Part shown: in pieces, positions 5,856 to 47,030 of the stretch
How positions within the stretch are numbered: position 1 is the first letter of the stretch
Layout of the letters: every line of letters begins with the position of its first letter
Source of the DNA: an uncultured Pirellulaceae bacterium
GTDB lineage: Bacteria; Planctomycetota; Planctomycetia; Pirellulales; Pirellulaceae
Length of the DNA: 64,000 bases
NCBI GenBank assembly: GCA_938091115.1
Contig: CALKNI010000147.1
Coordinates: 1 to 64,000, forward strand
Reading direction: 5' to 3'
Notes under the pieces: generated by a model
Databases searched by the model: none
What the model saw: only the letters and a program-made list of their open reading frames with translations
Told to the model about the DNA's origin: nothing
Made by a program: the position numbers and the translations under genes

Positions 5856-7790
5856 ATGGCCAATGGTTTTGTGATGAATTCACCTTCGCCCACCGATGAC
5901 GGACAATACAAAGTTGTCGCACTCAAATACCGCCCCCAATTGTTTGGGGAGTTGGTGGGGCAGAGCCACATTGCGACTGCATTATCTAATGCAATTGATA
6001 AAAATCGTGTCGGTCACGCGTATCTGTTTACCGGGGCACGAGGAGTTGGGAAGACTTCGTCAGCGCGTATTTTCGCCAAGTGTCTGAATTGCGTAGAGGG
6101 CCCAACAAAAACGCCTTGCGGGAAATGTGGTATTTGCGAAGCCGTTTCAGCCGGTGACGACGTCGATGTTTTAGAAATTGACGGCGCCAGTAATCGAGGA
6201 ATCGATGAGATTCGTTTGTTGCGATCCAATGCGTCAGTCCGTCCAAGTCGTTGTAAGTACAAGATATATATCATCGACGAAGTGCACATGTTAACGATGC
6301 AGGCTTTTAATGCACTGTTAAAGACGCTGGAAGAACCGCCGCCGCATGTCAAATTTATTTTTTGCACAACCGATCCGCAGAAAATACCGATTACAGTTTT
6401 GTCGCGTTGTCAGCGATTTGACTTTTCGCCTGTTCAGACAAATGAGATTTCCCAACGCCTTGCAGAGATTGCAGCGAATGAAGGTGTGACTGCTGACGAA
6501 CAGGCGTTAGCTTTGTTGGCTCGACGCGCAAACGGGTCAATGCGAGACAGTCAGTCTTTACTTGAGCAACTTTTTTCGTTTTGTGGAAACTCGATTTCCG
6601 TTCAGGAAGTCCATGAGTTACTTGGGACTGCGGACATGGGCAGAATTGCCGATATCTCAACTGCAATGGTAAACGCTGACCCCATGACGGCCCTGAATTT
6701 AATTCATCACGGAATCAAAGATGGGGTTGATTCAGGGCAAATGGCAGATCAATTGCTCGGGTATTTTAGAGACATGATGATCGCTAGTGTCGATTGCAGT
6801 CCCGACACTTTTTTGAATTGCAGCGAAGGCGACCTCGAACACTTAAAAGTACTTTCCAATGCCATTGGTTTGGAAACAATTCTCACGATCGTGCAGCTGT
6901 TGGATTCGGCAGTGGTTCGAATGCAATCAAGTTTACACGGCAGAACATTGTTGGAAGCAGCTGTTGTTCGAGTTTGTAATCTTGAGAAATTGGAAACGAT
7001 TTCTGAATTGGTTGCCCAGTTGTCAGATCCCAAAGCCCCGAAGGCATTGGGAAACGCTGCGCCGCGTCAGCGTGTTGAGATGAGGCAAGTCCATAGTTCT
7101 GCAGCCGATCAGGAAGCTTTAAAAAAAAAGGAAATAGCACCTAGTCAAACACCGCCGCGATCTGCAACAGGCGTGGCGATAGCGACTGATACGCAAGTAC
7201 CTTCTATCACAGGGCGAGACGAGGCTTCCGGGGAAGCTCAACGTAGTTCGGAAGTTGTTTCCGCCGGCGGTTCGCTCGAATCAATGATTGCGGCTACTCC
7301 AGAATTGCCTGCCAGAAGTCAGACAGCCATAACTGGAGAACCGGCGGAAGCCGATAGTGGAGCTAGTTCTCGATCAGATACTCGTTCGACGAGTGCAGAT
7401 GCCAGTTCGATCGAAGCACACTGGAAAACGGTACTCGAAACGATGGGCGATATGACCGCTGAAATGGCTTCCAATTATGAATCGGTTGAACTTCGGGGAT
7501 CGGATCAATTATTCGTTACTTTGCGAGATAAGGTGAGTCGAGATCTTTGTATTAAGCCCGAACGCCGCGCTCGTTTTGAGGAGGCGTTTGAGAAGGTAGC
7601 TCAGCACAAGGTTCGTGTTGAGTTTTTGGTCTCCCCAAAGGCAATAGGGAGCGCGGCACCGAAGCCTAAACTTACCCGTGCACAACAGATGAGGAAATTG
7701 CAGGATGTGGCATTGGTCAAGCAGGCGATGGAGTTGTTTGACGGTGAGATTACTGGTTTTCGTGAGCCAGTACCTTCGAAACAGCGTTGA
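5856..7790 (+). CDS. dnaX: DNA polymerase III subunit gamma/tau
   Basis: 644 aa. Clamp-loader ATPase of the replisome. Residues 24-36 carry KYRPQLFGELVGQ; the Walker A motif is GARGVGKTSSA (about 60-70); zinc-binding cysteines 79, 88, 91 and 94 follow (CGKCGIC); DEVHMLT is the Walker B/DExH; EEPPPHVKFIFCTT and SRCQRFDF are the sensor and arginine-finger regions. Domains I-III end near residue 370. A low-complexity linker (about 385-530) leads to a C-terminal tau-like region that would contact the polymerase and helicase. At codons 422-425 the gene has a TTAAAAAAAAAGG run with stops just downstream in both other frames, suggesting that a short gamma form is also made (see separate entry). Start could also be ATG 5874. 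It begins the dnaX-ybaB-recR run. Confidence 0.95.
   Translation: MANGFVMNSPSPTDDGQYKVVALKYRPQLFGELVGQSHIATALSNAIDKNRVGHAYLFTGARGVGKTSSARIFAKCLNCVEGPTKTPCGKCGICEAVSAGDDVDVLEIDGASNRGIDEIRLLRSNASVRPSRCKYKIYIIDEVHMLTMQAFNALLKTLEEPPPHVKFIFCTTDPQKIPITVLSRCQRFDFSPVQTNEISQRLAEIAANEGVTADEQALALLARRANGSMRDSQSLLEQLFSFCGNSISVQEVHELLGTADMGRIADISTAMVNADPMTALNLIHHGIKDGVDSGQMADQLLGYFRDMMIASVDCSPDTFLNCSEGDLEHLKVLSNAIGLETILTIVQLLDSAVVRMQSSLHGRTLLEAAVVRVCNLEKLETISELVAQLSDPKAPKALGNAAPRQRVEMRQVHSSAADQEALKKKEIAPSQTPPRSATGVAIATDTQVPSITGRDEASGEAQRSSEVVSAGGSLESMIAATPELPARSQTAITGEPAEADSGASSRSDTRSTSADASSIEAHWKTVLETMGDMTAEMASNYESVELRGSDQLFVTLRDKVSRDLCIKPERRARFEEAFEKVAQHKVRVEFLVSPKAIGSAAPKPKLTRAQQMRKLQDVALVKQAMELFDGEITGFREPVPSKQR
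7111..7144 (+). promoter_or_regulatory. Candidate dnaX programmed slippage site
   Basis: SD-like AGGAAG (7111-7116) is followed after 7 nt by the heptamer A AAA AAG (7124-7130), within a run of nine A. A -1 shift gives GGA AAT AGC ACC TAG, stopping at 7142-7144 and making about 429 aa. A +1 shift, or loss of one A, stops at TAG 7135-7137. E. coli dnaX uses the same heptamer with an upstream SD-like element, and Thermus dnaX slips on an A9 run. A possible stem GCCGCG/CGTGGC at 7154-7177 is further downstream than the E. coli one. Confidence 0.65.
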
Positions 7791-7855
7791 GTTGACTCGA
7801 GTAAAGCGGTTTAGCTATGGAATCGCAGTTGTTTATATTTTGTTTGGAGATTGAG

Positions 7856-8251
7856 ATGTTAAAAGGACTCGGAAACATCGCTGCCTTGATGAAGCAGGCG
7901 CGTACGATGGGCCCCCGAATGCAGGAGCAAATGGAGGAACTCAAATCGAAAACGGTTCACGGTGCTTCGGGTGGCGGCATGATCAGGGTTCAGGCAAATG
8001 GTATTGGGCAGATATTGAGCGTTTTAATTGATCCTGCTCTTTCCGAGCAAAGCGATGTAGAGATGATTCAAGACCTTCTACCGGCGGCAATTAATGACGC
8101 GTTGGAGAAGCATCAGCAATTGAGAATGGAAGTAATGCAGTCGGTAACCGAAGATCTGCCTCTCCCCGGAAACATGGAAGACATGTTGAAGCAATTTATG
8201 GGTGGAGACGAGGGAGACGACTCCTCAGGATTGACTTCACCAATAGTTTGA
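7856..8251 (+). CDS. YbaB/EbfC family nucleoid-associated protein
   Basis: 131 aa from the internal start at 7856. The ORF track start (7817) adds 13 residues with no family counterpart; the YbaB family begins with a short Met-x-x-Gly-(Leu)-Gly-Asn stretch, here MLKGLGNIAALMKQA, and GGAG precedes this ATG by about 9 nt. Small dimeric DNA-binding protein, expected to be cytoplasmic; visible family features are the N-terminal helix, the central VHGASGGGMIRVQANG strand region and DLLPAAINDALEK near the C-terminus. The C-terminus is acidic (GGDEGDD). Located between dnaX and recR, as in most bacteria. Confidence 0.9.
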   Translation: MLKGLGNIAALMKQARTMGPRMQEQMEELKSKTVHGASGGGMIRVQANGIGQILSVLIDPALSEQSDVEMIQDLLPAAINDALEKHQQLRMEVMQSVTEDLPLPGNMEDMLKQFMGGDEGDDSSGLTSPIV

Positions 8252-8371
8252 TTGCTTAAGTATCGAGTATCGCACATTTTAGCTGCAGAGATTTTTACAT
8301 TTGCCGGGATGGATGTTGGCAATCGGCAGGCGTTTCAAAGGTAAATCAGGGAAGGTAGAGAACACGAGATC

Positions 8372-8971
8372 ATGGCCGAACTATCTGATTCAGTCTCAAA
8401 CATGATTGATCAACTCGCGCGGTTGCCGGGGATTGGCCGTAAGTCGGCCGAACGCCTGGCGTATCACATTTTGCGGGTTCCGGAATCGGAAGCCTTTGCT
8501 TTAGCCGATTCGATTCGTACGGTTCGCGAGAATGTCCGTTACTGTGGGATTTGCTTTAATCTGGCTGAGAGTGAGATGTGTAATATTTGCCGTGATCCGG
8601 CCCGCGATCAAAAATTAATTTGCGTCGTCCAGCAACCACGAGACTTGATGGCTCTGGAGCAGTCGGGGACTTATCGGGGACTGTATCATGTACTGCTTGG
8701 CCGTATTGCACCGCTAGAAAATATTGGCCCCGACCAACTAACGATCGATCAGTTAATGGGGCGGGTCTCCCAGGGTACTTTTGACGAAGTGATCATGGCG
8801 ACCAATCCGACGGTCGAAGGAGATGGCACAGCGCTTCATATTTCGAATTTACTTTCTGAATTCGACATTAGGCTGACAAGGCTTGCCCGCGGAATAACGA
8901 CCGGCAGTATTTTAGAATACACGAATAAAGAAATTTTGGCAGACGCCTTATCTGGGCGTCAGCCGTTATAG
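8372..8971 (+). CDS. recR: Recombination mediator protein RecR
   Basis: 199 aa, the usual length. The N-terminal helix-hairpin-helix (LARLPGIGRKSAERLAYH, residues 13-30) is followed by a zinc finger CGICFNLAESEMCNIC (about 56-71) and a Toprim domain with VVQQPRDLMALEQSG and TNPTVEGDGTA. RecR works with RecO (and RecF) to load RecA on gapped DNA. The start has an upstream GGAAGG about 20 nt away and is the only one that gives the complete HhH. It ends the SRP RNA-dnaX-ybaB-recR block; a terminator follows. Confidence 0.96.
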   Translation: MAELSDSVSNMIDQLARLPGIGRKSAERLAYHILRVPESEAFALADSIRTVRENVRYCGICFNLAESEMCNICRDPARDQKLICVVQQPRDLMALEQSGTYRGLYHVLLGRIAPLENIGPDQLTIDQLMGRVSQGTFDEVIMATNPTVEGDGTALHISNLLSEFDIRLTRLARGITTGSILEYTNKEILADALSGRQPL

Positions 8972-46127: not shown

Positions 46128-47030
46128 TTAGTCGTTTTGGTCAAAGAGTCTGTCATGGTAAGCGAATACTGCGACGCCAAGTTTTTCGGCGATACGAATC
46201 GTCTCACTTTCCTCAAGTATGATTGTGCGGTCTGCTTCAATCGCGAGCACCCGTCCCCCTTCGCGTGCGATTGTTTCAATGGTTCCCACTCCGATGGTGG
46301 GTACATCGAATCGCATGTCCTGATTAGGTTTTGAAACTTTAACAACTGTAAACCCACCCGCACAAAGTTGGCCTGCACGGGCGATGCACTGGTCAGTGCC
46401 CTCGATAGCCTCGACTGCGAGCACTGCTTGATTTTTTACCACGACAGTTTGCCCAATATCTAAACCTCCCATGGCCTTGGCCATTTGCCAGCCGAATCGA
46501 ATGTCTTTTAATTGACTTTTGTTCGGTTGGTTCTTTGTCAGTGGCCCTGCTTTCACCAGTAACTCCGGAGCAAAATCAGTTGCGGGGGCGAATGTAATTC
46601 CCTCTGATTTATACAACTCAACGACCGTGTTGAGGAGGGTGTCGTCCCGCCGATCATTCGATTTTAAAAGAAGAAATGGATAGAAATGTCGCCAGAATAC
46701 TAAATCGGGAAAGTGTGTTAACAAGTTAATTTTTTTTTGGAAAAGCAGAGTTTTAAATATCTTACCAGCCATAGTTGCGTGTTCTACACCGGCGTTGCGG
46801 AGGAATCTGCATTGGGCTCCCATGCGCGCCATTCCAAACACGCGATAAGAAGTGCAAATTTCTTTTAGTGCGGGGTCTGCATGGTCTTTTATTCCTGTGC
46901 AGTGAACTTCGTAGCCCTGGGCGATCAGTTTTCGTGCGATGCAGACAGGGAAGTGTCCCCAGCCGGCAACCAGACCAATTTTTTTGCTGTTGAGACTGGC
47001 TGGGTTTCGATCTTGAGTGACAGTGGCCAT
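46128..47030 (-). CDS. lpxI: UDP-2,3-diacylglucosamine pyrophosphatase LpxI
   Basis: 300 aa. LpxI (DUF1009 family) cleaves UDP-2,3-diacylglucosamine to lipid X and UMP in lipid A synthesis; it replaces LpxH in many bacteria. Motifs: KIGLVAGWGHFPVCIARKL near residue 17, DDTLLNTVVELY (about 130), DIRFGWQMAKAMGGLDIGQTVVVKN and AVEAIEGTDQCIARAG. It is 27 bp downstream of lpxD and so probably cotranscribed. This supports lipid A-type outer membrane biosynthesis in the organism. Confidence 0.92.
   Translation of the reverse strand: MATVTQDRNPASLNSKKIGLVAGWGHFPVCIARKLIAQGYEVHCTGIKDHADPALKEICTSYRVFGMARMGAQCRFLRNAGVEHATMAGKIFKTLLFQKKINLLTHFPDLVFWRHFYPFLLLKSNDRRDDTLLNTVVELYKSEGITFAPATDFAPELLVKAGPLTKNQPNKSQLKDIRFGWQMAKAMGGLDIGQTVVVKNQAVLAVEAIEGTDQCIARAGQLCAGGFTVVKVSKPNQDMRFDVPTIGVGTIETIAREGGRVLAIEADRTIILEESETIRIAEKLGVAVFAYHDRLFDQND

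Follow-up and report, generated by a model that had tools for sequence, protein, structure and literature searches.

In Escherichia coli, dnaX gives two products, tau of 643 aa and gamma of 431 aa. In the dnaX gene of Thermus thermophilus, where tau is encoded by one open reading frame with nine A and with near stops in both other frames, transcripts with an altered number of A yield gamma (Larsen et al. 2000, as related in PMC5009743 and PMC1088944). Slippage of bacterial RNA polymerase becomes efficient, and is selected against, at a run length of nine (PMC1088944); this length matches the RNA:DNA hybrid of 9-10 bp (PMC5009743, PMC5574713). Two-ORF dnaX genes with 7-10 A have also been reported from the GeneTack predictions; the main text of that paper names Chlorobi, and we found no mention of planctomycete dnaX in it (PMC3711429). 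Nor did we find a report of slippage in planctomycete dnaX in the open literature, most subscription papers being outside the scope of this search. The importance of slippage that truncates a protein is considered hard to judge by comparative analysis (PMC1088944). Hundreds of genomes now supply that comparison, and for a large class of bacteria they speak for slippage rather than ribosomal frameshifting.

The dnaX gene considered here lies in a window of 64,000 nucleotides (the whole stretch of DNA analysed) from an uncultured Pirellulaceae bacterium, and its features are collected in Table 1. It certainly belongs to the DnaX family, with matches to TIGR02397 (residues 18-374, E = 9e-131) and to PF13177, PF22608 and PF12169, domain III extending up to residue 389. 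The A-run follows about 35 residues past domain III, in the zero frame GCT TTA AAA AAA AAG GAA ATA, which holds CTTTAAA at 7117-7123 and, in frame and within A9, the heptamer A_AAA_AAG at 7124-7130. An earlier note had drawn attention to AGGAAG, to this heptamer within nine A and to TAG in both other frames, and direct reading finds all these bases as it described them. The product sizes that it predicted, 644 aa for tau and about 429 aa for gamma, agree with our reading of 644 and 426-429 aa. The predicted gamma has 429 aa and ends in KKKGNST when the -1 frame is entered (by one extra A or by a -1 ribosomal shift), whereas loss of one A or gain of two leads into the +1 frame and to a gamma of 426-427 aa, with KKRK or KKKRK at its end. 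Should translation start instead at the second ATG, at 5874, tau has 638 aa and the gamma lengths are likewise shorter by 6. The likeness to E. coli extends to the same gene, to nearly equal product sizes (644/429 versus 643/431 aa) and, in this species, to A_AAA_AAG. The run is also placed as in E. coli, two-thirds through the gene, unlike that of T. thermophilus at seven-eighths.

Table 1. Features of the dnaX locus, with positions in the window
Feature	Position	Strand	Basis or remark
dnaX, full-length product tau	5856..7790	+	644 aa; open reading frame with TIGR02397 and Pfam matches
Part common to gamma and tau: AAA ATPase, lid, domain III	5907..7022	+	residues 18-389, profile matches
AGGAAG, SD-like	7111..7116	+	not kept in nearest relatives and not clearly enriched; judged outside any conserved signal
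A9 run, proposed RNA-polymerase slippage site	7121..7129	+	direct reading; A9-A11 in relatives
TAG in +1 (= -2) frame	7135..7137	+	predicted gamma end after one A lost or two gained
TAG in -1 frame	7142..7144	+	predicted gamma end after one A gained or a -1 ribosomal shift
Folded C-terminal domain of tau only, lost in the predicted gamma	7398..7739	+	about residues 515-628; KH-like fold in AlphaFold model

The search for dnaX covered 28 genomes from the genus, 149 from the family, 99 from the order and 156 from the phylum; 266 planctomycete loci were compared, and the longest A-run in the linker of each was scored. A run of A9-A11 at the end of domain III is present in 26 of the 27 loci from the genus, the sole exception (L026) being truncated where its contig ends; the same holds for some loci of the family. 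Runs of the same length occur in the linker of 82/91 loci from the rest of the family, 52/62 from the rest of the order and all 13 from another family of the same class; in the rest of the phylum they are found in 15/73 only. Among class loci with enough sequence, 173 of 189 carry A9-A11 at the same place and 16 (about 8%) do not. Because of these, the production of two DnaX products by way of the run, as judged from the sequences, is not universal in the class. Run length is sharply bimodal, with A9-A11 in 188 of the 266 loci, A8 in four and A7 in eight. Named records include Aporhodopirellula aestuarii (A10), Gemmata sp. IIL30 (A9) and an uncultured Schlesneria (A10). In 161 of the 188 run-bearing loci, each of the two other frames has a stop within 40 nt of the run. 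Outside the phylum, A9 with both alternative stops nearby was seen in an Ignavibacteria bacterium, two Bacteroidetes and a Verrucomicrobia bacterium.

Genes other than dnaX have A9 runs too, and it is the conservation of the run that counts. The genome holds 99 overlapping A9 matches in 4.19 Mb (a pattern count), and 9 of 23 sampled sites were in sense orientation within an open reading frame. Besides the dnaX run, the window has a single A9 run, at 46730-46738 on the minus strand; it is likewise in sense orientation, within an open reading frame of 300 aa (46128-47030) that looks like an LpxI (DUF1009) homologue.

Without any recoding, the run would be a lysine-rich flexible linker or a product of drift, and the gene would give only tau, or gamma by proteolysis as in Caulobacter (PMC5009743). 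This precedent and the run-less 8% of class loci speak for such a reading, but the distribution of runs within the genes makes it barely credible. Runs of at least nine A number 192 in the 86.9 kb of dnaX linkers, whereas the 266 genes have none in their N-terminal coding parts (282.5 kb) or in their C-terminal ones past the run (91.7 kb). When the linkers were recoded with the synonymous codon usage of each gene itself, such runs were expected in 22.5 of 183 genes (maximum 33 in 200 trials), and they are observed in 167. Alternative-frame stops are enriched as well: both are found no more than 15 nt from the run in 58% of loci versus 4% at control positions (14-fold), and no more than 40 nt from it in 90% versus 14%. 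Moreover, the pure run of at least nine A persists while its phase and the encoded peptide vary, and some genes, described below, would lose tau if nothing were recoded. The earlier note had named relatives with an interrupted run and no alternative stops as evidence against two products; the class loci without the run are a minority of 16 in 189. The separate production of gamma and tau which that note proposed is strongly supported by the conservation of run and stops, while the E. coli-type mechanism that it implied fares poorly across the relatives.

According to that mechanism, tRNA-Lys would slip by -1 on A_AAA_AAG, helped by AGGAAG and a downstream stem, and translation would end at the stop at 7142. 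The window sequence is compatible with it in several respects. The heptamer is in the right frame and a downstream stem is possible (z -1.9 to -2.4). In the genus, apart from one copy in an array, UUU is the only core tRNA-Lys, and this, as in E. coli, would permit the shift. Among relatives, however, these elements are not kept. In-frame A_AAA_AAG is found in 30 of the 188 run-bearing loci (16%; 3/26 in the genus). A_AAA_AAC, which is a weaker shift site in E. coli (PMC5009743), is present in 74 of the 188. The end of the run falls at codon position 2 in 116 of these loci, at a codon boundary in 37 and after one base in 35, and the run encodes peptides as different as EKKN, AKKK, QKKT, LKKN, SKKN and KKK, among others; hence no single ribosomal heptamer is kept, and no single peptide. 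On a tree of the N-terminal part of DnaX, run-end phase has undergone at least 47 changes versus 21 for run presence, counts that are indicative only, given that the tree was a quick one and that phase has three states versus two for presence.

The proposed stimulators are not maintained either. The bases of AGGAAG are accounted for by the codons CAG GAA GC, the SD match upstream of the window run being 4 nt, and the nearest relative (L004, 91% identical) lacks the motif and has AAGCAGC instead. SD-like motifs upstream of the run were not clearly enriched in any group, their frequency being at or slightly above background (3/26 in the genus, with 0.13 as the background rate). In the window gene, the stem begins at least 12 nt past the run, and it differs already in close relatives; no conserved downstream structure was found in 108 loci (mean z -0.32), and the sequence past the run does not fold more strongly than other parts of the gene. 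Moreover, a ribosomal shift of this type needs 7 nt, yet runs of A7-A8 are almost absent, and it has no need of the stop in the +1 frame. We therefore consider it an unlikely source of the conserved pattern. SD-like enrichment, the in-frame heptamer and stem-loop conservation were all tried as signs of ribosomal frameshifting, and none held across relatives. The tRNA-Lys complement proved uninformative as a discriminator between mechanisms: this draft genome and pattern matches across the genus give UUU only, while one complete genome of the same genus (L429) has UUU plus one CUU copy within a tRNA array. The array (2656100-2658500) comprises 15 tRNA genes including tRNA-Lys-CUU, apparently duplicates core tRNAs and is possibly part of a mobile element.

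Kept among the compared loci are at least nine A without interruption and near stops in both other frames. Stops kept in both frames, a floor of nine A and indifference to phase are what slippage by RNA polymerase predicts; the polymerase does not read codons, and its slippage needs both stops. The Thermus-type sequence features are found here, with at least nine A between domain III and the tau-only part, stops in both frames, and phase and next base free. The Thermus type would further entail mRNAs that vary in their number of A, and gamma and tau in a ratio of about 1:1. The E. coli-type set, namely a conserved in-frame A_AAA_AAG, an upstream SD-like stimulator and a close downstream stem-loop, is not; unlike in E. 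coli, it is the longer run and both stops that are kept. Transcriptional slippage at the A9 run thus very probably yields tau and gamma, and the class-wide planctomycete case most likely joins the known Thermus-type slippage of dnaX. The case differs from T. thermophilus in that slippage is a prediction here, that relatives have A9 as often as A10, and that UUU is the only core tRNA-Lys.

The following course of events is proposed. RNA polymerase would slip on the A9 run and produce mRNAs with 9, 10, 11, 8 or more A. Those with 9 or 9+3n A would be translated through to tau, while other numbers of A would bring ribosomes into either alternative frame, where a TAG within 16 nt would end gamma. 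Gamma would then have the ATPase and domain III but not the C-terminal domain, and both subunits could join one clamp loader. For the present organism, we infer slippage, its efficiency and the use of gamma. In this species, -1 ribosomal frameshifting at A_AAA_AAG could add some gamma, although it would not be the conserved mechanism. A more general combination, with slippage as the conserved base and a ribosomal shift adding a -1 product wherever G follows the run, seems quite improbable to us. A9 followed by G does hold both signals in this species, and 30 loci are alike in this respect, but the base after the run varies and G is not preferred, C being the commonest overall.

Several relatives appear to have a dnaX gene of reversed polarity, in which the zero frame stops just past the run. 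Four of these were found close to the window species, L025 in the same genus and L039, L191 and L196 in the same family. In all four the C-terminal part of tau is encoded in another frame and is 50-80% identical to related tau proteins over 121-199 residues; one extra A would lead into the tau frame in three of them, and one fewer in L039 (A11). Weaker matches of the same kind were obtained for L281, L287 and L297 in the wider phylum. All seven split tau over two frames at A9-A11, and the two-ORF dnaX genes reported by GeneTack have the same shape. In any one of the seven loci the split might in principle stem from an assembly error in the homopolymer. The loci are scattered among relatives from their own genus or family in which dnaX is a single ORF. 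Slippage may be the ancestral, class-wide route to gamma in Planctomycetia, with a free run phase that lets the gene flip its polarity repeatedly, so that in some species tau would come only from slipped transcripts; we regard this wider proposal as evenly balanced between right and wrong. The reversed-polarity genes are natural variants, and the need for gamma becomes testable by evolution, the run being kept though otherwise avoided in dnaX genes while its frame drifted.

The part unique to tau contains a conserved C-terminal domain. The AlphaFold model has a mean pLDDT of 72 overall and about 90 over the domain. It resembles KH-like folds, and matches in Foldseek, below the strict threshold, included domain V of E. 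coli tau in 5fku_E (E = 6e-3, probability 0.98) and 2aya (E = 1e-2, probability 0.84). A sequence search of this part against the PDB gave only spurious weak matches. The modelled resemblance to domain V of E. coli tau is best taken as a lead. In E. coli, domain V binds the alpha subunit of the polymerase, and domain III, common with gamma, binds delta and delta' (PMC10850973). Because the predicted gamma would be without the conserved C-terminal domain, and by analogy with alpha binding by domain V, the likely role of the two products is to provide a clamp loader in which some DnaX subunits bind the polymerase and others do not.

A different arrangement is seen in L279, L280 and L286, relatives at the level of the phylum that belong to one family; they are without A9, and their zero frame stops at a common GGA AAA GCC TGA near residue 390. 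They contain G_GGA_AAA in frame; this may be a recoding signal of another kind, or else DnaX is short in them. In the window, the gene order over 5856-8971 is dnaX, a YbaB/EbfC-like gene (7817-8251) and a RecR-like gene (8372-8971), the last two labelled by sequence appearance.
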